Shown here: positions 1,389-56,010 of the stretch, piece by piece | Layout: each line of letters starts with the position of its first letter | Numbering within the stretch: the stretch's first letter is position 1 | Origin: a virus | Length of the DNA stretch: 56,180 bases | Virus record (IMG/VR): IMGVR_UViG_3300028595_000015 | Span: 1-56,180 of that record | Direction: 5' to 3' (one strand) | Position numbers and translations under genes: made by a program | Notes under the pieces: generated by a model | Databases searched by the model: none | Told to the model about the DNA's origin: nothing | What the model saw: only the letters and a program-made list of their open reading frames with translations

Positions 1389-1793
1389 ATGGCAGTTCCT
1401 ATCGTAGGCAACGACGACTCTATCTTAGTACAAGTTAAAAAAATATTAGGAATGAATGAGGCGTATACGGCTTTCGATATCGATATAACATTGCACATAA
1501 ATACAGTTCTTAGCAACCTAACTCAAATGGGGGTTATAAAGGAATCAGGATTTATGGTAACTGGTGTTGATGAAAAATGGTCCGACTTAGGTTTGACAAG
1601 TATTATTAAAACACAACAAATAAAATCTTACATACCTTTAAAAGTAAGGATGATGTTTGACCCACCAACAAATGCTAATGTTAAAAAAGCCATCGACGAG
1701 TCTATAGAAGAGATTGAATTTCGACTATTCGTTGAAGAGGAAAATAATAGATACGATAGCCTTATAGTATCAGAAGAGGAGGAATCGTCATGA
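1389..1793 (+). CDS. head-tail connector (gp6-like adaptor)
   Basis: A 134-residue protein resembling phage head-tail connectors. It has an N-terminal helix of the type DSILVQVKKILGM, a middle block containing LHINTVLSNLTQMGV, and the helical hallmark YIPLKVRMMFDPPT before a C-terminal helix ending in an acidic Glu-rich tail. This helical adaptor normally forms a ring beneath the portal. It overlaps the next gene by 4 bp (ATGA), suggesting translational coupling. It lies before the large terminase rather than after the capsid gene, which is an unusual order. Confidence 0.7.
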   Translation: MAVPIVGNDDSILVQVKKILGMNEAYTAFDIDITLHINTVLSNLTQMGVIKESGFMVTGVDEKWSDLGLTSIIKTQQIKSYIPLKVRMMFDPPTNANVKKAIDESIEEIEFRLFVEEENNRYDSLIVSEEEESS

Positions 1794-2332
1794 TAAAAAA
1801 ATATATTGCGCATAGTGATTTATCTCATGCTGGTATAAAAGGTCAAAAATGGGGAATTCGCCGATATCAAAACGAGGATGGTAGTTTAACCGAAGAGGGT
1901 AAATTACGATATGGTAAAGGCGGAACTCATGAAAAGATAACAACTATCGAAAAAGATTACCATAATGTTAGTACAAAAGCTGCTAAAGAAGGTTTAAAAG
2001 GAGTTTCTGATGCTTCAAAAACTGCTGATAATGCCCTTAGAACAATCGGTACTAATAAATCAAAAGCTGTTAATTATAAAGACTATAGTAAAATTAGTGA
2101 TTCAGAACTAAGAGCAAGAATCAATAGATTGAATATGGAGAGAAGCTACGGCGAATTAACAGGAGATACTAAAAGAGTTAGAACTGGTCAAGACTGGACA
2201 AGAGAAGTGCTTCAAACTGTTGGGGCTGTTGCTGGTATAGGGGCTACTATTGCAGGAACCGCATATACAATTAGTCAACTTAAAATGCCTGGTTTAGATC
2301 CAAGTAAGAAAAAAGGAGGTAAGTCTAAATGA
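1790..2332 (+). CDS. tagged head-module protein A (HxGIKGQKWG tag)
   Basis: 180 residues. Residues about 13-42 carry a conserved tag (HAGIKGQKWGIRRYQ, then NEDGSLT and RY) shared with three neighbouring proteins. After it come a charged helical middle and a hydrophobic Gly/Ala-rich segment near the C-terminus (about 143-165), followed by a Lys-rich end. This tag occurs in many Bacillota phage proteins, but I know of no demonstrated function. Location beside terminase and portal and the membrane-like segment are compatible with an internal head or ejected protein; this is inference. Start chosen at the ATG behind GAGGAGG, overlapping the connector stop. Confidence 0.55.
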   Translation: MIKKYIAHSDLSHAGIKGQKWGIRRYQNEDGSLTEEGKLRYGKGGTHEKITTIEKDYHNVSTKAAKEGLKGVSDASKTADNALRTIGTNKSKAVNYKDYSKISDSELRARINRLNMERSYGELTGDTKRVRTGQDWTREVLQTVGAVAGIGATIAGTAYTISQLKMPGLDPSKKKGGKSK

Positions 2333-2802
2333 TAAAAAAATATATTACTCATGGCGATTTATCACACCACGGTATAAAAGGTCAAAAATGGGGAGTTCGC
2401 CGTTATCAAAATAACGACGGTAGTTTAACAACTAGAGGTCGCGCAAGATATAATGTTAACGAGGATGGTACTGTTAGGCTTAAAAAGAGTTATAGAACCC
2501 GAAAAAACGTTGTTGGGGGTATTAAAACAGTTGCTGGATTAAACAATATTGTTAAAGGTATCTCTGGGATAAGAGCTGCTAAGAAAGTTGGAATCAAAGG
2601 TGATGATGCCAAAAAATTTATGACCAAAAATGTAACATCAATGTTGATAGGGTCTATAGTTGTTGGGTCTGGGGTTAAGAATTTTGTACAAGCCAATAGA
2701 AGAGTTACATTTAATTCCACTGGGATGGGCGATAGTCCTGAGACATTTGTTGGCAAACCTAAAACGAGAAAACAAGTTTTACAGTATCAACAAAGATTGT
2801 AA
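2329..2802 (+). CDS. tagged head-module protein B
   Basis: 157 residues beginning nearly identically to its left neighbour (MIKKYI, then HGDLSHHGIKGQKWGVRRYQ). After the tag the protein diverges: a basic stretch (RLKKSYRTRKN), then two Gly-rich amphipathic or membrane-like segments (about 66-85 and 100-118), then a basic tail. The two genes overlap by 4 bp. The shared first 40 residues with unrelated remainders indicate a modular tag rather than simple gene duplication. Function unknown; a virion-internal role is inferred from context. Confidence 0.55.
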   Translation: MIKKYITHGDLSHHGIKGQKWGVRRYQNNDGSLTTRGRARYNVNEDGTVRLKKSYRTRKNVVGGIKTVAGLNNIVKGISGIRAAKKVGIKGDDAKKFMTKNVTSMLIGSIVVGSGVKNFVQANRRVTFNSTGMGDSPETFVGKPKTRKQVLQYQQRL

Positions 2803-2813
2803 GGTGAGATGAT

Positions 2814-4559
2814 ATGGCATTATCTAACACAGCCGTCCCAAAGTATTATGGTGAATTTAGAGATGCCGTACTAAGAGGTGATTTGCCTGTTTGTAGGGAA
2901 ATCTCTATGGAAATGAATAGAATAGATGATCTTATAAAAAATCCAGGAGTTTATTATGATGATTTAGCTATAAATGGTTTTATACTATATAGCGAAAAAG
3001 AGTTAACACTTACAGATGGTTCTGATTTGAAACTACTAGACAGTTTTAAATTATGGGCAGAGCAAGCTTTATCTTGGTTTTACTATGTAGAAAGATCCAT
3101 ATACGTAAAAGATAAAAACTCAAAAAGAGGTCATTATGAAAAACGAATGATTAAAAAAAGATTAACGAATAAACAGTATTTAATAGTTGCCAGGGGTGCT
3201 GCCAAATCTATGTATGCGTCATTATTACAAAGCTATATGCTTAATATAGATCCGCACACAACTTATCAGATAACTACCGCCCCAACAATGAAACAAGCAG
3301 AGGAAGTAATGTCTCCTATAAGAACTTCGATAATAAGGTCAAGAGGACCTCTTTTTAAGTTTTTAACAGAGGGGTCGTTACAAAACACTACTGGGTCAAA
3401 AGCTAATCGTGTAAAATTAGCGTCTACAAAGAAAGGGATTGAAAATTTCTTAACAGGTTCCTCGTTGGAGATTAGACCAATGAGGATAGACAAATTACAA
3501 GGTTTAAGGTGTAAGATGGCTACTGTTGATGAATGGCTTTCTGGTGATGTTAGAGAAGACGTTGTTGGAGCAATAGAACAAGGAGCTTCTAAAGTTGACG
3601 ATTATTTAATAGTTGCGGTTTCTTCAGAAGGTACTGTTAGGAATGGTTCAGGGGACACAATCAAAATGGAATTATTAGACATATTAAAAGGCGAATATGT
3701 TGCGCCGCATGTTTCTATATTCTATTATAGATTGGATAGCGTTGATGAAGTTGCGGATCCAGATATGTGGGTAAAAGCAAATCCAAATATAGGTATAACC
3801 GTATCTTATGAGTCATATCAACTAGATGTAGAAAGGGCTGAAAAAGCTCCTGCGGTTAGAAACGATATATTGGCAAAAAGATTTGGAATACCAATGGAGG
3901 GGTTTACATATTTCTTCACATACGAGGAAACAATCCCGCATAATAGAAAAAGTTTTTGGAATATGCCATGTGCTTTGGGTGTAGACCTATCACAAGGTGA
4001 TGACTTCTGTGCATTCACATTTCTATTCCCTCTTCCAAACGGAAGTTTTGGGATAAAAACTAGAAGCTACATTACTGAATACACCATGATGAAATTACCA
4101 ACGGCCATGAAAATAAAGTATAACGAATTTATTCAAGAAGGTTCTTTAATGGTTATGGTTGGTAATATACTAGACATGCATGAAGTATATGAGGATTTAG
4201 ATGCGTTTATAATAAAAGAAGAATATGATGTTAGATGTATGGGTTTTGATCCTTATAATGCGAAGGAGTTTGTTGAATGGTGGCAGACAGAAAACGGTCC
4301 TTATGGGATAGTTAAAGTAATACAAGGTGCAAAAACAGAGACAGTTCCATTGGGTGAATTGAAAAAACTCGCTGAACAGAGAGCTTTATTGTTCGATGAA
4401 CAATTAATGATGTTCGCTATGGGTAATGCTATAACTTTGGAAGACACTAATGGGAACCGAAAACTTTATAAAAAAAGAAGAGAAGCAAAAATAGATAACG
4501 TAGCAGCCTTAGTGGATGCATTTATTGCGTTTAAACAGAATAAGGAGGCGTTCGAATGA
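2814..4559 (+). CDS. terL: terminase large subunit
   Basis: 581 residues, normal length for TerL, the ATPase-nuclease motor that packages DNA through the portal. The N-terminal ATPase shows a Walker A variant ARGAAKS (about 126-132) and Walker B MATVDEW with the Asp-Glu pair near 239-240. The C-terminal RNase H-like nuclease shows LGVDLSQGDD (about 388-397) as the first metal ligand and MGFDPYNAKEF further on. This pattern fits the Terminase_1 type found in HK97-like phages. It is flanked on both sides by tag-bearing small proteins. The ATG follows AAGGTGAGATGAT. Confidence 0.95.
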   Translation: MALSNTAVPKYYGEFRDAVLRGDLPVCREISMEMNRIDDLIKNPGVYYDDLAINGFILYSEKELTLTDGSDLKLLDSFKLWAEQALSWFYYVERSIYVKDKNSKRGHYEKRMIKKRLTNKQYLIVARGAAKSMYASLLQSYMLNIDPHTTYQITTAPTMKQAEEVMSPIRTSIIRSRGPLFKFLTEGSLQNTTGSKANRVKLASTKKGIENFLTGSSLEIRPMRIDKLQGLRCKMATVDEWLSGDVREDVVGAIEQGASKVDDYLIVAVSSEGTVRNGSGDTIKMELLDILKGEYVAPHVSIFYYRLDSVDEVADPDMWVKANPNIGITVSYESYQLDVERAEKAPAVRNDILAKRFGIPMEGFTYFFTYEETIPHNRKSFWNMPCALGVDLSQGDDFCAFTFLFPLPNGSFGIKTRSYITEYTMMKLPTAMKIKYNEFIQEGSLMVMVGNILDMHEVYEDLDAFIIKEEYDVRCMGFDPYNAKEFVEWWQTENGPYGIVKVIQGAKTETVPLGELKKLAEQRALLFDEQLMMFAMGNAITLEDTNGNRKLYKKRREAKIDNVAALVDAFIAFKQNKEAFE

Positions 4560-4560
4560 T

Positions 4561-5049
4561 ATGAATAAATATTACATAGCGCATCATGGTATTAAAGGCC
4601 AGAAATGGGGTTTAAGAAGATATCAAAACCCTGATGGGTCGTTGACACCGGAGGGTTTTAAACGTTATGGAACTGTCGAAAATATGGAACGCTCTAGAGA
4701 TAGAAATAAAAAGATTGCTATTGGGGTTGGTGTTGCTGGCGCAGTAGCGGGGGTAGGTTATCTCGCGGTTAAAAACAGTAAACAAAAATCGAAAATAGAG
4801 TCTTATAAGAAAGCGGACCAGGCAAGAGAAGCTAAAAAAGCTGCCGCAAATGCTAAAAGAGCGGCTACTATAGCCTCTAAAAAAGCAAACGGTACTTGGC
4901 GAACAACTAAAAAAATAAGTATACCAAAGGGGTCTGATGTATCTTTAACTACATTTTTTAGAGATAGAGATGGGCTTAGGACTGATATCATCAAAGACGT
5001 AAAAGAGTATTTGAACGTTTTAGGTGGAACAGTTAAGGCAGGAGGGTAA
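4561..5049 (+). CDS. tagged head-module protein C
   Basis: 162 residues when started at ATG 4561, right after the terminase stop; the Shine-Dalgarno GGAGG lies inside the terminase end. The tag is at the extreme N-terminus (HHGIKGQKWGLRRYQ then NPDGSLTPEG). It is followed by a single hydrophobic span (IAIGVGVAGAVAGVGYLAV, about 56-74) and a Lys/Ala-rich helical region. Domain order is tag, membrane-like helix, basic tail. Function unknown. The proximity to terL and portal and the membrane-like helix make it a candidate internal or ejection protein, by inference. Confidence 0.55.
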   Translation: MNKYYIAHHGIKGQKWGLRRYQNPDGSLTPEGFKRYGTVENMERSRDRNKKIAIGVGVAGAVAGVGYLAVKNSKQKSKIESYKKADQAREAKKAAANAKRAATIASKKANGTWRTTKKISIPKGSDVSLTTFFRDRDGLRTDIIKDVKEYLNVLGGTVKAGG

Positions 5050-5054
5050 TTAAT

Positions 5055-5540
5055 ATGATAAAAACATATATAGCCCACCACGGTATAAAAGGTCAAAAAT
5101 GGGGAATTCGTCGATATCAAAACGAGGATGGTAGTTTAACACCAGCGGGAGTTCGGCGATATCAACGCCTTGACGAACGGTGGGTTAATAAAAAATCCGA
5201 CAAGATATACAAGAAAGCAATTAAAGAATCTAAACCAGAGATGAGAGAATTTGTTAAAGAACTTCAAAAAAATCATCCCACTGCCGGTAAGAGAACCATG
5301 TATAATATGTATAATAAAAAACTAGCAGAAGTGATGAGAACAAAAACAAAAGATATCGAATCGCCGTCTGGAAAAGTAATCGAATGGGTTGCCAAGAGAG
5401 GAACAATAGGCGTGCATATGGCGTTGGCTGATAGAGGATACGATATTAATAATCTTAAGAATGGTGTTTGGGCTGATGGTAGAATAGCCTATAGAGAAAA
5501 CAAAGTTGACATGCAAAATTCAGGAAGGGACGGTAGGTAA
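5055..5540 (+). CDS. tagged head-module protein D
   Basis: 161 residues. The tag is at residues 6-38 (AHHGIKGQKWGIRRYQ then NEDGSLTPAG). DNA in this stretch is nearly identical to the corresponding part of the gene at 1790, so the tag-coding DNA itself is duplicated or exchanged. The rest is charged and helical (KKAIKESKPEMREFVKEL), with no membrane span, and lacks a recognisable domain. It ends two bases before the portal start. Function unknown. Confidence 0.55.
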   Translation: MIKTYIAHHGIKGQKWGIRRYQNEDGSLTPAGVRRYQRLDERWVNKKSDKIYKKAIKESKPEMREFVKELQKNHPTAGKRTMYNMYNKKLAEVMRTKTKDIESPSGKVIEWVAKRGTIGVHMALADRGYDINNLKNGVWADGRIAYRENKVDMQNSGRDGR

Positions 5541-5542
5541 AC

Positions 5543-6823
5543 ATGGGAATGATTGATAGATTAAAACACGCTTGGAATTCCTTTGTTAATGAGGAAAGCA
5601 ATCCTAAAATATTCACTCAAAATTTAGGATATTCAACGTCCTACAGACCTGATAGAAGAACATTTACAAGAGGAAACGAGAAATCTATAGTTACGTCAGT
5701 ATATAATAGAATAGCAATAGATTGTTCAACAATGCCTATAAAACATGTTAAATTGGATGATAACGACAGGTATGATAAATTAATAAAATCTAATTTGAAT
5801 TCCTGTTTGACGTTAGAAGCCAATAAAGATCAACATGCTAGAGCATTTATGCAAGATATAGTTATTTCTTTATTTGATGAAGGGGTTGTTGCTGTAGTCC
5901 CCGTTGACACAAGTGTTAGTATAGAAAAAGGGTCTTTCGATATACATAGTATGAGAACTGGTAAGATAATACAATGGTATCCAGATCATGTTAAGGTTGA
6001 AGTGTATAATGATCGTGAAGGTGTAAAACAAAATTTAACACTACCTAAGAATCGAGTTGCTATTATAGAGAATCCATACTATGCTATAATGAATGAGAAA
6101 AACTCAGTATTACAACGTTTAATAACTAAATTGAATTTGCTGGATACGATAGATAATCAATCAGGGTCCGGTAAGTTAGATTTAATTATACAGTTACCAT
6201 ACGCTATAAAAAGTGAGGCTAGGGAAAAACAAGCCGATCTAAGAAAACAGCGTTTGGAACAACAATTAGCGGACTCTAAATACGGTATTGCATATACCGA
6301 TGGTTCAGAGAAGATAACACAACTTAATCGTCCCGTAGATAACAATTTATTAAAGCAAGTCGAATACTTAACGAGTATGCTGTATAGCCAGTTAGGAATA
6401 AGTAATGCGATATTAAATGGTACTGCGAGCGAGACAGAAATGTTAAATTATCTGCACGGTACTGTAGAACCTATTTTATCCGCGATAATTCTTGAGTTCA
6501 ATAGAAAGTTTTTAACAAAAACTGCAAGAACGCAAGGTCAAACATTAAAATACTTTAACGATCCTTTTAGGTTAGTTACAGTTGCTAATTTGGCAGAAGT
6601 TGCGGATAAGTTCACAAGAAATGAGATAATGACATCAAATGAAATCAGACAAATCATAGGTTTAAAACCTGTAAATAATCCTGACGCAGATTCTCTTAGA
6701 AATAAGAATCTTAACAAGGAAAAAGATTCTGGTGATATTAAAAAAGATGGTGAATTTATCAAAGAGAAACAAGTAGAAGAATCAAATTCTGATACTGGAA
6801 ATGGAGAAATTCAAAATGGATAA
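5543..6823 (+). CDS. portal protein
   Basis: 426 residues, the size of HK97-type portal proteins, which form the dodecameric DNA channel at one capsid vertex. Visible hallmarks are the N-terminal SVYNRIAIDCSTMPIKHVKL helix region, the wing region rich in beta strands, the stem/crown stretch with QLNRPVDNNLLKQVEYLTSML, and then SNAILNGTASETEMLNYL, typical of the clip/stem helices. The C-terminal 50 residues are charged and probably disordered. Located immediately upstream of the protease-capsid gene as expected. Its stop overlaps the start of that gene. Confidence 0.9.
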   Translation: MGMIDRLKHAWNSFVNEESNPKIFTQNLGYSTSYRPDRRTFTRGNEKSIVTSVYNRIAIDCSTMPIKHVKLDDNDRYDKLIKSNLNSCLTLEANKDQHARAFMQDIVISLFDEGVVAVVPVDTSVSIEKGSFDIHSMRTGKIIQWYPDHVKVEVYNDREGVKQNLTLPKNRVAIIENPYYAIMNEKNSVLQRLITKLNLLDTIDNQSGSGKLDLIIQLPYAIKSEAREKQADLRKQRLEQQLADSKYGIAYTDGSEKITQLNRPVDNNLLKQVEYLTSMLYSQLGISNAILNGTASETEMLNYLHGTVEPILSAIILEFNRKFLTKTARTQGQTLKYFNDPFRLVTVANLAEVADKFTRNEIMTSNEIRQIIGLKPVNNPDADSLRNKNLNKEKDSGDIKKDGEFIKEKQVEESNSDTGNGEIQNG

Positions 6824-8630
6824 TTATGATTTTAAAGGTTGGGCTACTAGACATAATGTTCTATGTAGTGATGGACGTGTTATTAAACCGAACGCGTTCA
6901 AACATAACGACCAACAAACAGTGCCATTAGTTTGGAACCATAACCACAAAGATGCTGATAATGTATTAGGACATGCATTTCTTGAGTATCGTGATGAAGG
7001 TGTTTATGCTTACGGAAAGTTTAATAACACAAGTCAAGGTATGAATGCTAAAGAGTTAGTTAGAAATGGTGATATAACTGCCTTATCTATCTACGCTAAT
7101 AAGCTAAAAGAAGAGTCTAAAAATGTTCTTCACGGAGATATCAGGGAAGTAAGTCTTGTTTTAGCAGGAGCAAACCCTGGAGCGCATATCGTGGATGTAT
7201 TGGCACATGGTGATGATGGCGAAGTAACAGGAGCCGTTATTTGGTTTGAAGAACTTGGAATGAATGATTTATTATCTCATTCCGATGACGACCCTAAGGA
7301 CGACCCTAAGGACGACCCTAAGGACGACCCTAAGGATGACCCTAAGGATGACCCTAAGGATGACCCTAAGGATGACCCTAAGGATGATCCTAAGGATGAC
7401 CCTGATATTAAACATTCTGAGGAGGATAAAAATATGGGCGACAAAGATAAAAAAGTCGAGGAAAAAACAATTCAAGAAGTATTTGACACATTAAACGAAG
7501 AGCAAAAAACAATGGTGTATGCTTTATTAGCAATCGCACAAGATGAAGGAGAGAAAAAAGACATGAAACAAAACGCATTTGAAAAAGACATCGATGTCAA
7601 AGATGAAAATGTATTAACACATGCAGAATTCGAAGCTGCTTTCGCTGACGCGAAAAAAAATGGTTCTATTAGAGATGCTTTCTTAGCACATGGAATCACT
7701 GATGTAGATGTATTATTCCCAGAAGCACAAGCCTTAAATAAAGAACCAGAACTTATTAAAAGAAACGATGGTTGGGTATCTAGAGTAATTAACGCTGTTT
7801 CAAAATCACCATTCTCAAAAGTTAAAACTACAGGAGCTAACATTACTGCAGAAGAAGCAAGAGCAAAAGGTTATGTTAAAGGTGAACAAAAAGTAGAAGG
7901 TGTTATGGCTGCTTTAAAAAGAGTTACAAGCCCTACAACTGTCTATAAATTTGAAAAACTAGATCGTGACGATGTTTTAGACATTGTTGATTTCGACGTA
8001 GTTGTTTATATGAAAAAAGTTATGCGTACTTTATTAGATGAAGAGTTAGCTAGAGCATTCTTAATTGGTGATGGTCGTAGCGCTATTGATGAAAATAAAG
8101 TTAACCCATTAAACATCCGTCCAATTTGGGGAGATAATGCTGTTTATACTGTTAATAGAGTATTAGTACCTACAGAAGGTGCTTCAGCAGCAGTTAAAGC
8201 AAAACAATTCATTCAAGATATGATTCGCGCACGTAAGTTATATAAAGGTTCTGGTAATCCAAGCCTATATACAACTGAAGACGAACTAGTTGAAATGTTA
8301 TTGTTAGAAGACACAAATGGTAGAGTAATTTATGACACTGTTGATAAATTAAAAACTGCTCTTCGTGTTAAAGAGATTATTACAGTAACACCAATGGAAG
8401 GTGTAAATAGAGTTGATGGTGACGATCAATATGACTTATGTGGAATTATTGTAAACTTAGCGGATTACAATGTAGGTGCTGATAAAGGTGGACAAACTAC
8501 AATGTTTGAAGACTTCGATCTAAACTTCAATAAACATGAGTATTTAATTGAAACTCGTGTATCTGGAGCTCTTAAAATTCCTTATTCTGCTCTTACATTT
8601 GAACGTAAAGGCGCAGTAGTAGCTGGATAA
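6816..8630 (+). CDS. prohead protease - major capsid protein fusion
   Basis: 604 residues from ATG 6816, which has a better-spaced GGAG than the in-frame ATG at 6801. Numbering from 6801, residues 1-140 are an HK97-type prohead (S78) protease: WNHNH (His 47 or 49) and ALSIYAN (Ser 96) are the likely catalytic His and Ser. A DDPK tandem-repeat linker follows (about 161-201), then a scaffold-like (delta-domain) charged helix region, then an HK97-fold major capsid protein (LNIRPIWGDN and the C-terminal LIETRVSGALKIPYSA). An internal GAGGAGG plus ATG at 7434 could also give a free capsid protein. Protease and capsid are usually separate genes. Followed by a GTTTAGGTAAAC palindrome. Confidence 0.88.
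   Translation: MDNYDFKGWATRHNVLCSDGRVIKPNAFKHNDQQTVPLVWNHNHKDADNVLGHAFLEYRDEGVYAYGKFNNTSQGMNAKELVRNGDITALSIYANKLKEESKNVLHGDIREVSLVLAGANPGAHIVDVLAHGDDGEVTGAVIWFEELGMNDLLSHSDDDPKDDPKDDPKDDPKDDPKDDPKDDPKDDPKDDPKDDPDIKHSEEDKNMGDKDKKVEEKTIQEVFDTLNEEQKTMVYALLAIAQDEGEKKDMKQNAFEKDIDVKDENVLTHAEFEAAFADAKKNGSIRDAFLAHGITDVDVLFPEAQALNKEPELIKRNDGWVSRVINAVSKSPFSKVKTTGANITAEEARAKGYVKGEQKVEGVMAALKRVTSPTTVYKFEKLDRDDVLDIVDFDVVVYMKKVMRTLLDEELARAFLIGDGRSAIDENKVNPLNIRPIWGDNAVYTVNRVLVPTEGASAAVKAKQFIQDMIRARKLYKGSGNPSLYTTEDELVEMLLLEDTNGRVIYDTVDKLKTALRVKEIITVTPMEGVNRVDGDDQYDLCGIIVNLADYNVGADKGGQTTMFEDFDLNFNKHEYLIETRVSGALKIPYSALTFERKGAVVAG
7284..7402 (+). repeat. 12-bp tandem repeat (GACGACCCTAAG and variants) encoding DDPK linker
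   Basis: About ten in-frame copies of a 12-bp unit lie inside the protease-capsid gene; early copies read GACGAC and later ones GATGAC. The unit length keeps the frame when copies are gained or lost, so length polymorphism between strains would be tolerated. The encoded Asp-Asp-Pro-Lys chain should be extended and highly charged. Confidence 0.9.
7420..7436 (+). promoter_or_regulatory. internal ribosome-binding site and ATG for free major capsid protein
   Basis: GAGGAGG at 7420-7426 followed by seven bases and ATG (7434-7436), in frame within the fusion gene and directly after the DDPK repeat. It is as strong as the best start sites elsewhere in the window. Initiation here would give a 398-residue scaffold-capsid protein without the protease. 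Confidence 0.6.
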
Positions 8631-28041: not shown

Positions 28042-28069
28042 ACGCATAATTAACATACCTCTTTATAGA
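28042..28069 (+). promoter_or_regulatory. early promoter-like element 1 (ACGCRT-N5-ACATA-N6-TATAG)
   Basis: ACGCAT, ACATA and TATAG are at the fixed spacing shared by thirteen sites. It is followed by the ribosome site of the gene at 28104. Confidence 0.6.
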
Positions 28070-28103
28070 AATAACTATATATAATATAAGGAGGATATTA
28101 GTA

Positions 28104-28416: not shown

Positions 28417-28444
28417 ACGCATAATATGCATAGCTCTTTATAGA
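28417..28444 (+). promoter_or_regulatory. early promoter-like element 2
   Basis: ACGCAT, GCATA (variant of ACATA) and TATAG in register, upstream of the gene at 28466. Confidence 0.6.
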
Positions 28445-28465
28445 AAATAAAAGGAGGAATTTTTA

Positions 28466-29451: not shown

Positions 29452-29479
29452 TCGCATTAATTGCATACTCCTATATAGG
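29452..29479 (+). promoter_or_regulatory. early promoter-like element 3
   Basis: TCGCAT, GCATA and TATAG in register. Here TATAG runs directly into GGAGGAG, so an ordinary -10 box at this place would put the transcript start beyond the Shine-Dalgarno sequence. Confidence 0.55.
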
Positions 29480-29489
29480 AGGAGATATT

Positions 29490-30145: not shown

Positions 30146-30371
30146 AAAAGTATTAATAGCTGGTGCAGTAGTTAGTTTAATAACAAGTTCTTTTATTGTT
30201 GGTTTTAGGGTTGGATTAAAAAGTTCTGAAAAAAATACGAAGTACGCAGGCGTTCTTAGCATAGCCCCCGATGAAAATGGCGATGATCTGTTATATGTAT
30301 CTTTAGATGAACATCCCAAAAATTTATACGGTCTATCGAACGTTGTATTTAAGGTTAATAAATTAGCATAA
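30135..30371 (+). CDS. small membrane protein
   Basis: 78 residues when started at ATG 30135 (GGAGG six bases upstream), inside the end of the previous gene. An N-terminal membrane span (LIAGAVVSLITSSFIVGF) and a soluble C-terminal domain with YAGVLSIAPDENGDDLLYV, a recurring small-protein pattern of Bacillota phages. Unknown function. Confidence 0.55.
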   Translation: MRNKKVLIAGAVVSLITSSFIVGFRVGLKSSEKNTKYAGVLSIAPDENGDDLLYVSLDEHPKNLYGLSNVVFKVNKLA

Positions 30372-30391
30372 TTTACATACTGTATAATAGG
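30364..30391 (+). promoter_or_regulatory. early promoter-like element 4 (variant)
   Basis: TAGCAT and ACATA in register, but TATAAT at a three-base-shifted position. Weaker member of the family, before the gene at 30421. Confidence 0.4.
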
Positions 30392-30420
30392 AAAAATACT
30401 TAAAAATAGGAGGAAAGAAA

Positions 30421-31528: not shown

Positions 31529-31555
31529 CGCGTTTTTTACATATAATTATATAGA
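31528..31555 (+). promoter_or_regulatory. early promoter-like element 5
   Basis: ACGCGT, ACATA and TATAG in perfect register; upstream of the gene at 31586. Confidence 0.6.
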
Positions 31556-31585
31556 ATCATAAAACTATAAGGAGGATTTAAAGTT

Positions 31586-32358: not shown

Positions 32359-32386
32359 ACGCAAATTATACATGCCCCTTTATAGA
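32359..32386 (+). promoter_or_regulatory. early promoter-like element 6
   Basis: ACGCAA, ACATG and TATAG in register, upstream of 32418. Confidence 0.55.
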
Positions 32387-32417
32387 AAGTATTAAAAATA
32401 AAAGGAGGATTTTTAGA

Positions 32418-34490: not shown

Positions 34491-34515
34491 ACGCGTTTTT
34501 TACAAAGGTTATAAT
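34491..34515 (+). promoter_or_regulatory. early promoter-like element 7 (variant)
   Basis: ACGCGT and ACAAA in register with TATAAT shifted by three bases, as in element 4. Upstream of 34562. Confidence 0.45.
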
Positions 34516-34561
34516 GAGGGAAACCTTATTTTATAAAAATAATGAAGAAGGAGATTTAATT

Positions 34562-44795: not shown

Positions 44796-44823
44796 GCGCA
44801 AATTATACATACTCCTTTATAAG
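44796..44823 (+). promoter_or_regulatory. early promoter-like element 8
   Basis: GCGCAA, ACATA and TATAA in register. TATAA runs straight into GGAGG and the ATG at 44837, leaving no room for a normal -10 to +1 gap that would keep the Shine-Dalgarno in the message. Confidence 0.55.
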
Positions 44824-44836
44824 GAGGAATGATAAA

Positions 44837-49795: not shown

Positions 49796-49823
49796 ACGCG
49801 TTTAAAACATAGTCATTTATAGA
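49796..49823 (+). promoter_or_regulatory. early promoter-like element 9
   Basis: ACGCGT, ACATA and TATAG in perfect register. Confidence 0.65.
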
Positions 49824-49853
49824 AAAACTAAAAACTAAAGGAGGAATTTTATA

Positions 49854-50137: not shown

Positions 50138-50165
50138 ACGCGTTTAAAACATAGCGCATTATAGA
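50138..50165 (+). promoter_or_regulatory. early promoter-like element 10
   Basis: ACGCGT, ACATA and TATAG in register. Confidence 0.65.
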
Positions 50166-50186
50166 AAATAAAAGGAGGATTTTATA

Positions 50187-50554: not shown

Positions 50555-50582
50555 ACGCGTTAAAAACATAGTCATTTATAGA
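50555..50582 (+). promoter_or_regulatory. early promoter-like element 11
   Basis: ACGCGT, ACATA and TATAG in register, immediately after the preceding terminator T run. Confidence 0.65.
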
Positions 50583-50601
50583 AAATAAAGGAGGATATTT
50601 A

Positions 50602-50913
50602 ATGAAAAATTTACTTGGAAAAGGTGTTTTAATATTGGGATATACTGTCGGTATTGGTTATGTGTTTAAGATTTGCACTGCGTTTAGCGATGTAGCGTTA
50701 GTTAATAAGCATTTGAAAAAATCAAAAGGGATGACCACCGATGAAATAATAACAATACTAAATGCAAGAATGAGTAGTAAGGAATTAGATGAATATTTTC
50801 GTATGAAAGCAAAAGAGCTTAGAGGTAGAAAACTTAAAGATGGAGAACTTAAAAAACTTTTAAGATATGATTCAATCGTATCAGAGTGTTATAAGAGTGT
50901 TCCAGTTAGTTAA
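50602..50913 (+). CDS. small membrane protein, paralogue 1
   Basis: 103 residues. N-terminal membrane span (LLGKGVLILGYTVGIGYVF) then a helical domain ending in KAKELRGRKLKDGELKKLL and YDSIVSECYKSVPVS. Its neighbour at 50990 is visibly the same protein with changes along the entire length, so the two are tandem duplicates. Function unknown. Confidence 0.6.
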   Translation: MKNLLGKGVLILGYTVGIGYVFKICTAFSDVALVNKHLKKSKGMTTDEIITILNARMSSKELDEYFRMKAKELRGRKLKDGELKKLLRYDSIVSECYKSVPVS

Positions 50914-50941: not shown

Positions 50942-50969
50942 ACGCGTTAAAAACATAGCTCTTTATAGA
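50942..50969 (+). promoter_or_regulatory. early promoter-like element 12
   Basis: ACGCGT, ACATA and TATAG in register. Confidence 0.65.
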
Positions 50970-50989
50970 AAAACAAAGGAGGATTTTAT

Positions 50990-51298
50990 ATGAACAAATT
51001 TGGTAAAGGTGTTACACTTTTGGGATATTTTATTGGTATGAATTTCTTAATTGATGTTTGCAAAGATGTTAGAGACGTTATGTTAGTCACTAGATATTTG
51101 ATGAACTCAAAAGGAATAACCAAAGAAATGATCACAAAAATAAGTGACGCAAAAATGGAAGATGGTCAAATGAATGATTACTATAAGTTGAAAGCAAGAG
51201 AGCTTAGAGGTAGAAGACTTACTAATAAGGAATCTAAAAAATTATTAAAGTATGATTCGATCATATTAGGTAGTTTTGAAGATATTCCAATTAGTTAA
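50990..51298 (+). CDS. small membrane protein, paralogue 2
   Basis: 102 residues. Same layout as 50602: N-terminal span (GKGVTLLGYFIGMNFLID), middle helices, KARELRGRRLTNKESKKLL, ending YDSIILGSFEDIPIS. The promoter element, ribosome site and terminator are also duplicated with it. Confidence 0.6.
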   Translation: MNKFGKGVTLLGYFIGMNFLIDVCKDVRDVMLVTRYLMNSKGITKEMITKISDAKMEDGQMNDYYKLKARELRGRRLTNKESKKLLKYDSIILGSFEDIPIS

Positions 51299-51326
51299 GA
51301 GCTACTAATGCTCTTTTCTTTTTTTT
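51297..51326 (+). terminator. terminator hairpin
   Basis: AAGAGC pairs with GCTCTT, then TTCTTTTTTTT; nearly identical to the hairpin at 50912. Confidence 0.7.
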
Positions 51327-51370
51327 AGGTAAACACTTTATATTTACATATACTTTTCGTTTTTACATGT

Positions 51371-51670
51371 TGTGTCACTTTTGAAAATGTTTTTGACACA
51401 TATTTTAATTTTTTTGACACAAATGAATAAAATGACGTTGTTGATATTACACATAAGCGTTTTGTGTCACTTTTGTGTCACTTTTGTGTCACTTTTGACA
51501 TATGTTTTTGACACACTTTTTAAGAGTTTTTAAATGATATTTGGGTAAACCCTGGTTATTATTGCCTAAATAATTGGTGTTTTTTATGATTTGTGTCACT
51601 TGTGTCACTTTTTTTATATACTTTATATTAAATAAAAATATATATATAAAATAAACTACAAATATTTTTT
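51371..51670. repeat. iteron-like TGTGTCA repeat array plus AT-rich tract, candidate replication origin
   Basis: TGTGTCA occurs at 51371, 51463, 51474, 51485, 51592 and 51601, and the inverted TGACACA at 51394, 51415 and 51509. Three direct copies at 51463-51491 are spaced 11 bp apart, and two copies near 51592-51607 are 9 bp apart. A pure A/T tract (about 51606-51670) follows. Regularly repeated initiator-binding sites next to an easily opened AT-rich segment is the typical build of a phage or plasmid origin. The alternative is a regulatory array. No gene lies in 51299-51798. Confidence 0.55.
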
Positions 51671-51693
51671 GACATTTGGCACAAATAGTGTTC

Positions 51694-51721
51694 ACGCATT
51701 AAAAACATAGACTTATATAGA
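51694..51721 (+). promoter_or_regulatory. early promoter-like element 13
   Basis: ACGCAT, ACATA and TATAG in register, upstream of the nuclease gene at 51799 and at the edge of the iteron region. Confidence 0.6.
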
Positions 51722-51798
51722 GAGAATAGGTAACATTGCCTAAAAAAATTTATTCACACACTTTATTTTTTTTATATTTAGAAGGAAGGTAATGTATA

Positions 51799-52119
51799 AT
51801 GAGAGAAACAGGTAGAAATGGTTATATGGGTAAGGTTAAAAAGAAGATAAGAAAAGAATTTCCACAATGTGAAGTGAGAAGGTTAGATCCAAATGAGTAT
51901 CAAGGAAGCCCCGACTTACTTATTATGTGTCCGGTAACATGGGCGACTTTGGAAGTTAAAAATTCTGAAAAAGCAAAAAAACAACCAAACCAAGAAAACT
52001 ACGTCAATAAACACGATGATATGAGTTTCTCAAGTTTTATATTTCCACAAAATGAAAAAGAAGTTTTTAATAGTCTGCATAGACATATTGAATCTTTCAG
52101 CAAAGGAGAACGAAAATGA
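51799..52119 (+). CDS. VRR-NUC-type nuclease
   Basis: 106 residues. The catalytic core is readable: EVRRLDPNEYQGSPDLLIMC (PD with Asp about 39), then TWATLEVKNSEKAKKQPNQE (E-x-K, about 53-55, and QPNQ). This is the VRR-NUC version of the PD-(D/E)XK fold, typical of phage Holliday-junction or structure-specific nucleases. It probably acts in replication or recombination intermediates, next to the candidate origin. ATG behind AGAAGGAAGGTAATGTATA. Confidence 0.8.
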   Translation: MRETGRNGYMGKVKKKIRKEFPQCEVRRLDPNEYQGSPDLLIMCPVTWATLEVKNSEKAKKQPNQENYVNKHDDMSFSSFIFPQNEKEVFNSLHRHIESFSKGERK

Positions 52120-52751
52120 TATTTAATAAGCATGAAACATTAGAAGGTAAGCATGCTTTTCTTGGAGCAAGCACATATCACTGGTTAAGATGGGATGAAA
52201 TGACTTTGGAACAAAGATACTATAGTCAGTACGCCCAAACCATAGGAACTATAATACACGAGCTAGCGGAAGATTTAATTAGAAACAAAATTAAGCTCGC
52301 TAAAAGTGATAAGAAAATTATAGACATAACTTTGTCTAGAATGGGTGTTCATAGAGCAGCGTATAATTCGGATGAAATTCTAAGTAATTTAATGCCATTT
52401 GTTAATGATGCAATAGGATATAGAATGGAACCTGAAGTTTTACTATATTATTCCAATAATTGTTTTGGAACATCTGATGCAATAGGACTTGATGAATACA
52501 ATAAAATTCTTAGGATACATGATTATAAGAATGGTAAAACACCATGTAAGATGGATCAATTGATGATTTATGCCGCACTGTTCTATTTAGAGTATAAATT
52601 AAAACCAATAAACTATACTACCGAATTAAGAATATATCAAAATGGGGAAACTATTATATTTGTACCAGAACCTAATGAAATAGATTATGTTATGAATAGA
52701 ATAGTGGAATCAGATAAATATATAAAAAAACATCTTGAAAGGGGAATATAA
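52116..52751 (+). CDS. RecB/Cas4-like PD-(D/E)XK nuclease
   Basis: 211 residues. It has the RecB-type nuclease motif order: GTIIHELAEDL with His near the N-terminus, FGTSDAIGLDEY (Asp), ILRIHDYKNGKT (D-Y-K), then MDQLMIYAALF (Gln and Tyr motif). No cysteine cluster for an iron-sulfur centre is seen, so it is closer to RecB-like exonucleases than to Cas4. Overlaps the previous gene by 4 bp, suggesting they work together, perhaps in recombination-dependent replication. Confidence 0.75.
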   Translation: MIFNKHETLEGKHAFLGASTYHWLRWDEMTLEQRYYSQYAQTIGTIIHELAEDLIRNKIKLAKSDKKIIDITLSRMGVHRAAYNSDEILSNLMPFVNDAIGYRMEPEVLLYYSNNCFGTSDAIGLDEYNKILRIHDYKNGKTPCKMDQLMIYAALFYLEYKLKPINYTTELRIYQNGETIIFVPEPNEIDYVMNRIVESDKYIKKHLERGI

Positions 52752-52754
52752 TGT

Positions 52755-55724
52755 ATGGATAATCACAAGTTTGATGATATTAGTGATATAAAAGAAGAAG
52801 AACTAATGCATTATGGTACCCCTAGGCATTCTGGTAGATATCCTTGGGGTAGCGGTGACACCCCTTATCAAAGAAGTGGTGATTTCTTATCTAGAGTTGA
52901 ATATTTAAAAAAAGAGGGCATGACGGAATCACAAATAAGTAAATCAATGGATATATCATCTACTAGATTAAGAGCTTTAGTGGCATTAGCTGGTAGAGAA
53001 CGAAGAGCAGATTTATATTCTAAGGCTAAAACTTTAGAAGAAGAAGGTATGAGCAGACCTAAGATAGCTGAAAAATTAGGATTAAAAGGTGAGTCATCGG
53101 TTAGATCATTATTAAATCAAGACTCTAAAGCAAGAATGAATATAGCAGTTGATTTGGCTGACAATCTTAGAGTTTTGGTTGATAAAAAAGGAATGCTTGA
53201 TATTGGTGCAGGAGTGCCTAGACAATTAAAAGTTTCAAGAGAAAAGATGAATCAGGCTGTTGAAATTTTAAAAATGGAAGGGTATGTTGTATATAATAAT
53301 AAAGTACCACAAGTTACAAACAAGGGGAATCTTACCAATTTAAAAGTTTTATGTAAACCTGGTACTGAATACAAGGAAGTTTATAATTTTGAAAACATTG
53401 GTACAGTTAACGACTTAACCTCATACGATGGCGGTAAAACATTTAAAAAATCTTTTCAATATCCAGCTAGCCTAGACTCTGATAGAATTAAAGTCAGATA
53501 TTCAGAAGAAGGTGGTGATAAAAAAGATGGTGTTATAGAACTTCGTAGAGGTGTTGATGATATTTCATTAGGAACTTCTAACTATGCACAAGTTCGTATA
53601 TTGGTCGACGGCACACATTATTTAAAAGGCATGGCTGTTTACAGTGATAACATGCCAGATGGCATTGATGTTATATTTAATACTAATAAGAGTAACAAAA
53701 TAAGTAAAATGGACACTATGAAAAAAATAAAAGACGACCCAGAGAACCCATTTGGTTCAACCATTAAAGAAAATGGAGGTCAGTCTACTTATATTGATAA
53801 AAATGGTGTTGAAAGACTCACTGTTATTAATAAAAGGTCTGATGAAGGTGATTGGGGTGATTGGTCAAGGGAAATATCAGCACAATTCCTTTCTAAACAA
53901 CCACAAAAATTAATAAAAAGACAAATCGCCTTATCTATGAAAGAAAAAAATGACGAATATAACGAGATAATGTCTTTGACAAATCCTACTGTTAAGAGAG
54001 CTCTTTTAGAAGCTTACGCCGATGATTGTGATGCTACATCAGTGAGTTTAAAAGCGGCTGGATTACCAGGAGCAAGGTATAAAGTAATATTACCAGTAAC
54101 ATCTTTAAAGGATACTGAAGTATATGCTCCTCATTTAGATGATGGTAGTGAAGTTGCGCTTGTTAGATATCCTCATGGTGGAACTTTTGAAATTCCAACA
54201 CTAACTGTAAATAATAGGAATAGAGAAGGCGTCAAACTTATGGGGAAACAAGCAGTTGACGCTATAGGTATTAATGCAAATGTCGCCAACATACTATCAG
54301 GCGCTGATTTTGATGGTGATACTGTAATGGTAATACCTATGAATGACAGAATTAAAATTAAATCACAACCACCATTAGAAGATCTTAAAGATTTTGATAC
54401 TGTTTTAAATTATGGTTATGATGATACTAAAATTGTTAATGGTGAGGAACGGTATTATAGAGGTGGTCGCGAATATTCAATAATGGATGAAGGCGCCACA
54501 CAAATACAAATGGGTACCATATCAAACCTGATAACGGATATGACGCTTATAGGGGCAACAAATAAGGAATTGGCTAGAGCTGTAAAACATTCGATGGTTA
54601 TTATAGATGCTAATAAACATAAATTAGACTATAAACAATCAGAAAAAGATAATGGTATTAGAGCGTTACATACCAAATACCAGTCACAAGTTGGGCCAAC
54701 AGGTAGAACTCACAAAGGAGCTGCTACTTTAATTTCAAAATCAAAGGGTAGACAAATAGTTAATGAACGTAAACTTGGGAAGTATGTACACAAGGATACA
54801 GGTAATGAATTAGTTCTATTTGATCCTGAAAATCAGATCTACTTAGATCCTAAAAGAAACACATTTCATACAAAAAATGAAAAGAAAACCCAATATATAG
54901 ACCCAGAGACAGGTGTAAAGTTATACAGATACACTGGTCGTGAATATATTAAGACTAGTTATAAAACGGCTTCTGGTAAAAACAAAACAGTTCCTGTCAT
55001 AGTAAAAGATGAAAAGTTGTTTTATAAGGATGAGAATGGTGAGTACATTCAAGTTACTAATGAACCAATAAAAAAATTTAAAGCAACAATGAACTCTACC
55101 AAGATGGCGGAAGTAGATGATGCACATAAATTGTCTTCTGGTACGCCACAAGAAGAAGCATACGCTGACTACGCAAACCAATTAAAAGGGTTGGCTAACA
55201 AAGCTAGAAAAAATACACTAACAATAATAGACAATCCAACATCTCTATCAGCGAAGAAATCGTATGACACAGAAGTTAAATCATTGGTACATAAGATAAG
55301 CATATCATTATTAAATGCTCCTAAAGAAAGACACGCCCAGATGATAGCAAATTCATTAGTTAGAGCTAAAAAACTAAGTAATCCTAGAATGACTTCTGAA
55401 GAACTTAGAAAAGTAGAACAACAAGCTCTAAGTAGGGCGCGTGTTCAAGCAGGTGCTGCAAGAAGAGAAATAGAGATAACTCAAAAAGAATGGGACGCTA
55501 TTCAAGCTGGTGCAATAAGTACAAACAGATTAAAACAAATAATGGCCCATGCTAATATGGACATTCTTAGACAATATGCAATGCCTAGAGCAACTACAAC
55601 TCTTAGTCCTAATAAGATTAGAAGAATAAAAAACATGGCTGCTTCAGGGTATACAACTGCGGAAATAGCTCGTTCATTGGGTATAAGTACAACCACTGTA
55701 ACTAGAACATTGAAAGGAGAATAA
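52755..55724 (+). CDS. single-chain two-barrel RNA polymerase-like protein with tag and HTH ends
   Basis: 989 residues. Residues about 18-39 are the tag-like HYGTPRHSGRYPWGSG, then two helix-turn-helix-like segments (about 48-75, 90-118). KGMAVYSDNMPDGIDVIFN (291-309) matches the beta-subunit barrel with its Lys, and NILSGADFDGDTVMVIP (512-528) contains the DFDGD triad (518-522) of the beta'-subunit barrel. MGTISNLITDMTL and LARAVKHSMVIIDANKHKL (586-623) resemble the helical block after the barrel in QDE-1/YonO-type polymerases. A final HTH (961-987, TTAEIARSLGISTTTVTRTL) ends the protein. Likely a phage RNA polymerase; the tag suggests it travels with the virion. Confidence 0.8.
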   Translation: MDNHKFDDISDIKEEELMHYGTPRHSGRYPWGSGDTPYQRSGDFLSRVEYLKKEGMTESQISKSMDISSTRLRALVALAGRERRADLYSKAKTLEEEGMSRPKIAEKLGLKGESSVRSLLNQDSKARMNIAVDLADNLRVLVDKKGMLDIGAGVPRQLKVSREKMNQAVEILKMEGYVVYNNKVPQVTNKGNLTNLKVLCKPGTEYKEVYNFENIGTVNDLTSYDGGKTFKKSFQYPASLDSDRIKVRYSEEGGDKKDGVIELRRGVDDISLGTSNYAQVRILVDGTHYLKGMAVYSDNMPDGIDVIFNTNKSNKISKMDTMKKIKDDPENPFGSTIKENGGQSTYIDKNGVERLTVINKRSDEGDWGDWSREISAQFLSKQPQKLIKRQIALSMKEKNDEYNEIMSLTNPTVKRALLEAYADDCDATSVSLKAAGLPGARYKVILPVTSLKDTEVYAPHLDDGSEVALVRYPHGGTFEIPTLTVNNRNREGVKLMGKQAVDAIGINANVANILSGADFDGDTVMVIPMNDRIKIKSQPPLEDLKDFDTVLNYGYDDTKIVNGEERYYRGGREYSIMDEGATQIQMGTISNLITDMTLIGATNKELARAVKHSMVIIDANKHKLDYKQSEKDNGIRALHTKYQSQVGPTGRTHKGAATLISKSKGRQIVNERKLGKYVHKDTGNELVLFDPENQIYLDPKRNTFHTKNEKKTQYIDPETGVKLYRYTGREYIKTSYKTASGKNKTVPVIVKDEKLFYKDENGEYIQVTNEPIKKFKATMNSTKMAEVDDAHKLSSGTPQEEAYADYANQLKGLANKARKNTLTIIDNPTSLSAKKSYDTEVKSLVHKISISLLNAPKERHAQMIANSLVRAKKLSNPRMTSEELRKVEQQALSRARVQAGAARREIEITQKEWDAIQAGAISTNRLKQIMAHANMDILRQYAMPRATTTLSPNKIRRIKNMAASGYTTAEIARSLGISTTTVTRTLKGE

Positions 55725-55728
55725 TGGA

Positions 55729-56010
55729 ATGAATAATAATAAAACAATAAGATTAACCTCTATAGACAATCCTTATGATCCTTTTACACACTGGGAACAA
55801 TGGTATTTATTTGACATGAATGCTGGGTACAATACATGTGGTAGATTAGCTTCTGTTACATTCTTAAGCGAATCAATGACCAATAAAGAACAGAATGAAG
55901 CATTAGAAGAAGGTATGGAACTATTGATTAAAACAGGATGTATTTCTAAAAATGGAAATGTGGTTGAATACAAAAAAGTAATAAAAAATGTTCAGACCCC
56001 ATTGTATTAG
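55729..56010 (+). CDS. small protein of unknown function
   Basis: 93 residues behind AAAGGAGAATAATGGA. It contains NPYDPFTHWEQWYLFDMNAG, NTCGRLASVTFLSES and an acidic helix. Not recognised. Last gene of the window, likely co-transcribed with the polymerase gene. Confidence 0.5.
   Translation: MNNNKTIRLTSIDNPYDPFTHWEQWYLFDMNAGYNTCGRLASVTFLSESMTNKEQNEALEEGMELLIKTGCISKNGNVVEYKKVIKNVQTPLY

Follow-up and report, generated by a model that had tools for sequence, protein, structure and literature searches.

A one-chain, two-barrel phage RNA polymerase with a tag that links it to head proteins: a probable passenger of the phage head

The subject of this study is a protein of 989 residues encoded at 52755..55724 (+ strand, ATG start) in the virus record IMGVR_UViG_3300028595_000015, whose 56,180 nucleotides were analyzed as one stretch, called the window below. 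The open reading frame (ORF) encodes an RNA polymerase with both barrels in one chain, and an element of its N-terminal tag recurs on proteins of the head module. Taken together, the results make it probable that this enzyme is packaged in the phage head and fires early promoters; packaging, cleavage, ejection and promoter recognition are the steps that we infer.

A preliminary description of the window had placed both signatures of the multisubunit RNA polymerase active site in this single chain, and their positions proved exact. The beta-like signature KGMAVYSDNMPDGIDVIFN occupies residues 291–309 (53625..53681, +) of the double-psi beta-barrel DPBB-A, and the catalytic DFDGD occupies residues 518–522 (54306..54320, +) of DPBB-B. 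The former resembles HGNKG...VDIVLN of bacterial beta. As DFDGD, K291, G292, P301, D305 and K323 were invariant in an alignment of 84 homologues, the polymerase motifs were considered to be beyond chance. An AlphaFold2 model based on this alignment reached a predicted local distance difference test score (pLDDT) of 86.4 and a predicted template-modeling score of 0.75, with residues 1–38 disordered (pLDDT < 50). The second barrel of the same chain, which includes the invariant K291 and K323, was putatively assigned to strands 260–363 of the model. When the model was compared with the PDB using Foldseek, 12 of the 12 matches at E ≤ 0.001 were one-chain two-barrel RNA polymerases (QDE-1, plant RDR2 and phage P74-26 gp62), and the structure matches in BFVD included a P23-45 RNA polymerase and other phage RNA polymerases. 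Against this, the global Foldseek template-modeling scores were low (0.23–0.28); therefore, the claim is limited to the two-barrel fold class, which the model supports, and superposition is not claimed.

The downstream helices had also been likened to those of QDE-1 and YonO. QDE-1 was indeed among the top Foldseek matches, whereas the homology to YonO of phage SPbeta appears remote and was seen with hhalign profiles only: a five-member YonO profile was aligned with the polymerase family over 81 columns around the catalytic barrel (E = 1.1e-4, probability 56%), DFDGD falling on the YonO DNDGD. A single YonO sequence gave no match to the family, and YonO is placed in a separate PHROG (8308). 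In the case of the crAss-like polymerases named in the same description, gp66 of phage phi14:2, likewise a one-chain two-barrel enzyme (PMC10770324), was not among the top structure matches. A single-sequence search of PDB chains with the polymerase returned chance matches only, and a profile search of PDB sequences returned only helix-turn-helix (HTH) domains and designed repeats. The polymerase identity was thus borne out by the invariant residues, the model, the structure matches, the YonO profile alignment and PHROG 4291, whose match spans residues 9–707 (E = 0). The HTH expected at the C-terminal end was also recovered, as a match of HTH_23 (PF13384, E = 5.6e-9) to residues 961–987, overlapping a domain assigned to residues 952–986 (55608..55712, +). 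Helical HTH-like repeats at residues 39–128 (52869..53138, +) were assigned from model helices and weak HTH profile matches.

When 50,697 phage records were searched by tblastn, homologues were detected in 250, and in 245 of these the match covered ≥80% of the polymerase length at <60% identity. At least 517 relatives were confirmed when IMG/VR was scanned with the catalytic core. The family is therefore widespread, not rare. Its members are usually annotated as "helix-turn-helix DNA-binding protein" or "RNA-dependent RNA polymerase". In phage HotFries (L132:40565-40664), the annotated polymerase start appears to lie too far 3', as the N-terminal tblastn match begins upstream of it.

The N-terminal tag, LMHYGTPRHSGRYPWGSG, occupies residues 17–34 (52803..52856, +), and it lies in the disordered part of the model. 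The polymerase had been described as starting with the tag; HYGTPRHSGRYPWGSG does lie near the N-terminus, at residues 19–34, but after an 18-residue leader ending in L-M (LMHYG at 17–21). A scan with the pattern SGRYPWGSG, which returned mostly polymerases, was circular as a measure of conservation, and conservation was instead judged on 71 polymerases with an N-terminal region that had been picked by the catalytic core without the tag. Among these, SGR[YF]xxGSG was kept in 69, and [LIF]xHxG upstream of it was also found in 69 (68 by script and L141 by eye); the two exceptions to the latter were L143, whose contig starts inside the gene, and L153, in which Q replaces H. The tag is thus a property of the whole family, and the earlier suggestion that it singles out this polymerase had to be dropped.

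The tag of the head proteins corresponds to Pfam DUF7211 (PF23847), and it had been thought to match the polymerase tag in the spacing of its RY and Trp/Gly positions as well. This did not hold, as homologues differ by as many as about 8 residues in the distance from HxG to SGRY. Accordingly, [LI]xHxG and SGRYxxGSG were treated as separate elements, and only the former is in register with the head-protein tag. DUF7211 was not among the 25 Pfam families listed for the polymerase, and [LI]xHxG is the only element common to both. In Rhodococcus phage Poco6, for example, the polymerase starts with DDYLAHYGILRRSGRYPWGSG and the head proteins with DNFLAHYGVKGMKWG, and both tags share [LI]xHxG. No literature match was found for the letters of the tag.

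The four tagged head-module proteins reported for the window were all present on the + strand and all matched DUF7211. They lie at 1790..2332 (tag SHAGIKGQKWGIRRYQ), 2329..2802 (SHHGIKGQKWGVRRYQ), 4561..5049 (IAHHGIKGQKWGLRRYQ; the ORF opens at 4516) and 5055..5540 (IAHHGIKGQKWGIRRYQ). The second was over the cut-off (E = 9.6e-7), and the other three were below it (E-values from 8e-5 to 2e-3). The link between the polymerase and head proteins through the tag was also upheld, since the same tag was found on non-polymerase head-module proteins and one head-protein family carries either form. The polymerase-type tag occurs on two such proteins flanking the terminase gene in phage MT835616, on one between terminase and portal in L066, and on three beside the head adaptor gene in L033. 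The MT835616 protein L004:1305-1895 matched both the polymerase N-terminal profile (3.3e-10) and phrog_7021 (2.4e-7), and the latter match persisted at 6e-5 after the tag was removed. The window protein at 1790–2332 without its tag also matched phrog_7021 (1.1e-8). As most phages have the DUF7211 tag on their head proteins of the phrog_7021 family, and MT835616 has the polymerase-type tag there, the two tags look interchangeable.

Tags were further found on GNAT acetyltransferases (Streptomyces phage Bilo gp6 and two L033 proteins) and on proteins with 2H/LigT-like domains (Poco6 gp15, Eddiemania gp15 and Kardashian gp6). Bilo gp6 has the architecture tag-GNAT-tag-helical. Such acetyltransferase and 2H-phosphoesterase proteins (L216:2269-3171, L006:14111-15727, L217:4948-6636 and those of L033), which bear either the DUF7211 or the polymerase-type tag, some in a tag-domain-tag arrangement, are possibly packaged. 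Separately, a conserved [LI]xH[YEA]...YDPVKAREYYLRTRELKGR protein, another case of LxH near the N-terminus, is encoded between the portal and protease fusion genes in L131, L135, L136, L138 and L006, and is absent from the window.

The LxH element of the tag leaders is also present in the linkers of the protease-capsid fusions. In the window, an S78 prohead protease (PF04586, E = 6.6e-9) is fused to the major capsid protein (6801..8630, +), and the linker at residues 129–298 is rich in [LIVMF]xH[AGS]. The last such site, LAHG at residues 295–298 (7683..7694, +), is the presumed cut that would free the mature capsid protein, directly before ITDVDVLFP. Among the 86 histidines in the fusion linkers of 11 phages, 75 had a hydrophobic residue at -2 and 59 fitted [LIVMF]xH[AGS], compared with 0 of 34 histidines in the capsid part and 55 of 1041 in the rest of four proteomes. 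The same pattern was found at 61 of 90 linker histidines in 13 further fusions. In all 11 fusions of the first set, and then in 11 of the 13 further fusions, LxH directly preceded the presumed start of the mature capsid protein, while the number and positions of the linker sites differed widely between fusions. LxH is presumably the motif of the head protease, and its strong enrichment in the linker, as LxH[AGS], suggests that this protease has a cut site within the tag. In the window fusion, DDPK repeats (7270–7410) were also noted in the acidic linker.

In its distribution among phages, the protease-capsid fusion nearly coincides with the polymerase, the phage counts by host genus being Arthrobacter (95), Gordonia (55), Streptomyces (54), Lactococcus (13), Curtobacterium (7), Rhodococcus (4), Microbacterium (4) and Faecalibacterium (2). 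Moreover, among 27 long contigs that carry the polymerase, 24 had DUF7211 matches, compared with 0 of 14 control genomes. This co-occurrence of DUF7211, fusion and polymerase shows co-inheritance in one phage lineage and is not by itself a sign of function. With respect to the virion, the polymerase homologue orf75 (gp75) of Lactococcus phage 1706 was labeled "structural protein" in the original deposit; orf62 and orf71, which like orf75 lie outside the structural module, bear the same label. In the RefSeq version, 1706 gp07, with two tags, is also a "structural protein", and Poco6 gp106 received this label by similarity. Where a protein from outside the head-tail module bears such a label, mass spectrometry of virions is the likely source; a search of the literature for proteomics of relatives gave nothing usable. 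The 1706 proteins gp62 and gp71 (L007/L009) are small, and no tag was seen in them.

A candidate promoter motif was found in the intergenic sites of the window, where CGCGTTAAAAACATAGNNNTTTATAGA matched five times with none expected. Poco6 has repeats of a related motif with TATAATGAGACCCC, which is also present in HotFries, and the window and Poco6 motifs fall into one gapless register, CGCR-N6-ACA-N7-TATnATRRRA. A position weight matrix (PWM) was built from 11 window and 11 Poco6 sites and applied to ten other phages of the family, of which HotFries is not fully independent because it helped to suggest the register. It returned 61 matches on the coding strand, 0 on the opposite strand and 0 in shuffled sequences, and it recovered copies in Camille, Kardashian and HotFries that a strict regular expression misses. 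SPbeta gave one weak match. In a separate scan, sigma-70 promoters showed no clear excess over shuffles. Loci bearing the motif beyond the window are L005, L273-L276 and L132.

In the window, 13 candidate phage promoters, all on the + strand, lie within 28.0–51.7 kb (28043–51724), and none was found before 27 kb. They are located at 28043..28072 (PWM score 28.9), 28418..28447 (28.4), 29453..29482 (28.1), 30365..30394 (21.9), 31529..31558 (16.9), 32360..32389 (32.1), 34492..34521 (15.5), 44797..44826 (28.1), 49797..49826 (27.3), 50139..50168 (29.4), 50556..50585 (28.7), 50943..50972 (31.1) and 51695..51724 (28.8). The sites at 30365, found by the matrix, and at 34492 were outside the training set. 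The last site would serve the endonuclease-exonuclease-polymerase operon and occupies the same place in relatives; in 9 of 12 phages, a motif site stands before this operon, no more than about 1.6 kb from the polymerase. The head/tail part was free of the motif in five relatives and Poco6, and three matches in 1706 lie just past its tail genes. Since the hosts of motif-bearing phages span Bacillota and Actinomycetota, the motif is likely recognized by a co-inherited phage factor, for which the polymerase is the obvious candidate. Neighboring paralogous small ORFs (50602–50913 and 50990–51298) each have their own copy of the motif, and each is followed by a terminator-like hairpin.

These results can be assembled into the following scheme. 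The disordered polymerase N-terminus, consisting of a short leader, [LI]xH-Y-G and then SGRYPWGSG, would act as a head-targeting tag, and the leader would take the polymerase into the prohead alongside the other tagged proteins (DUF7211 proteins, some of which have an acetyltransferase or 2H-phosphoesterase domain). The capsid-fused S78 protease would cut the tag after LxH, as it would cut the numerous LxH[AGS] sites of its linker and the site just before the mature capsid protein. At infection, the polymerase would enter the cell with the phage DNA and start transcription at the CGCR-N6-ACA-N7-TATnATRRRA promoters that precede the small early genes and the polymerase operon; the HTH domains of the enzyme may read these promoters. 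Later transcription of the polymerase operon would supply new heads. An enzyme serving early promoters is needed before they fire, which fits packaging.

Several observations weigh against this scheme, and they are taken up here together with the rival explanations. YonO, the relative that has been tested, serves late genes (PMC5467207), and the polymerase could likewise be a non-virion enzyme, made after infection for middle or late genes, with a tag of other purpose. The remote homology to YonO and the operon promoter, whose motif is that of the early genes and would allow synthesis after infection, agree with this. It was nevertheless judged rather improbable, because head-module proteins bear the tag too and one family of them has it in either form, 1706 gp75 was deposited as structural, and the motif is missing from the head/tail region, the place expected for late promoters. 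In the case of the tag, the residue after LxH (P1') is A, G or S in the linker and Y, H or F in the tags; thus, the tag may not be cut by the head protease, and its cleavage is a step that we infer. The linkers that gave the LxH counts are homologous, so that the counts lack independence and their Fisher values are indicative only. SGRYxxGSG downstream of LxH is no less conserved than LxH itself, and the tag could be an uncut binding element for portal, capsid or scaffold, the LxH repeats of the linker being docking sites. This appears unlikely, though less so than a non-virion enzyme, given that LxH directly precedes the presumed mature capsid start in nearly all fusions and that the tag-domain-tag proteins look like precursors. 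Repeated sites in a removed linker together with short leaders are, in addition, a known head-protease pattern: protease gp245 of phage SPN3US cleaves after AXE, the sites recur along lengthy propeptides, the leaders have 20–24 residues, and the SPN3US head holds an internal RNA polymerase (PMC10052503).

The motif itself may be read differently. In Lactococcus phages it is weak or seldom found, and no copy was detected before the polymerase in 1706, P162 or Kardashian. Its actinophage copies contain TATAAT, readable by a host sigma factor, and among cluster A phages, intergenic repeats in one orientation are known to be stoperators (PMC5559632). Accordingly, reading of the motif by the host RNA polymerase together with a phage activator, or an array of operators for a repressor as in cluster A actinophages, is a real possibility, albeit the less probable one. 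The sites end approximately 10–35 nt 5' of start codons with the ribosome site in between, the sigma-A TTGACA is missing, and the CGCR..ACA register is held across hosts of two phyla, whereas that of the -10 hexamer is lost in the window. A true RNA-dependent RNA polymerase, as suggested by the PHROG 4291 and RefSeq names and by QDE-1 and RDR2 as the nearest solved folds, is very improbable: the name reflects a likeness of fold, YonO, a member of the same superfamily, is DNA-dependent (PMC5467207), and the DNA-binding-type HTH segments and the double-stranded DNA phage context favor DNA. A head-packaged polymerase for early promoters was therefore preferred.

One-chain two-barrel phage RNA polymerases and virion RNA polymerases are already known (YonO, PMC5467207; P23-45, PMC10770324). 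YonO shares this architecture and an alignable catalytic barrel, and differs from the present enzyme in lacking such a tag and in serving late genes. Thermus phage P23-45 has two such enzymes, the virion gp96 and the non-virion gp64, and its virion polymerase fires pre-early genes at its own promoters (PMC10770324); that polymerase is fused to the tape measure, whereas the one described here is a free enzyme with a short head-type tag. Other members of PHROG 4291 (1706 gp75, Poco6 gp106 and the SEA-PHAGES "HTH DNA-binding domain protein") show full-length homology and the same operon near the genome end; in the literature consulted, the group is an unstudied annotation, and the tag, protease link and promoter motif are not described. 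The crAss-like gp66 is a larger protein located in the virion. In T4, the internal proteins and Alt have a capsid targeting sequence that is cut at LxE. They and the internal virion polymerases of SPN3US and phiKZ likewise combine a short N-terminal leader, a head-protease motif and injected enzymes. Unlike in those phages, the motif here ends in His rather than Glu, the S78 protease is capsid-fused, the phage is a siphophage, and part of the tag after the site is conserved. Pfam DUF7211 covers the head-protein form of the tag, with no function given, and the polymerase-type tag falls outside its coverage. The literature searchable without subscription gave no account of tag-based loading common to head proteins and enzymes, of the LxH link to a capsid-fused protease or of the cross-phylum motif.

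The operon around the polymerase lies wholly on the + strand. It opens with a VRR-Nuc-like endonuclease gene (51799..52119; phrog_93, E = 7e-5), which has syntenic VRR-Nuc counterparts in relatives, and an exonuclease gene (52116..52751; phrog_3953, E = 3.5e-62) lies immediately 5' of the polymerase. A conserved small protein is encoded 3' of it (55729..56010; phrog_4303, E = 1.2e-21). The long AT-rich intergenic stretch at 51299–51798 contains repeated GTGTCACTTTT and TTTTTGACAC units, possibly iterons of a replication origin.

More broadly, the phages considered here may form a family of Bacillota and Actinomycetota phages with a transferable head-loading tag, trimming of it by a His-specific (LxH) capsid-fused protease, a packed polymerase with a changing set of enzymes, and one ancient early promoter shared across phyla and held in register with that polymerase; this wider view is held tentatively, with nearly as much speaking for it as against. 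If the packaging scheme is true, some 250 sequenced phages, many of which sit in teaching collections (Arthrobacter, Gordonia and Streptomyces), would hold an overlooked virion RNA polymerase now named "HTH protein", together with a candidate promoter. Siphophages would have in the tag a compact address label by which enzymes are loaded into the head, and DUF7211 would gain a function. A one-chain two-barrel polymerase and its candidate promoters would then be available for studying how such enzymes recognize DNA.

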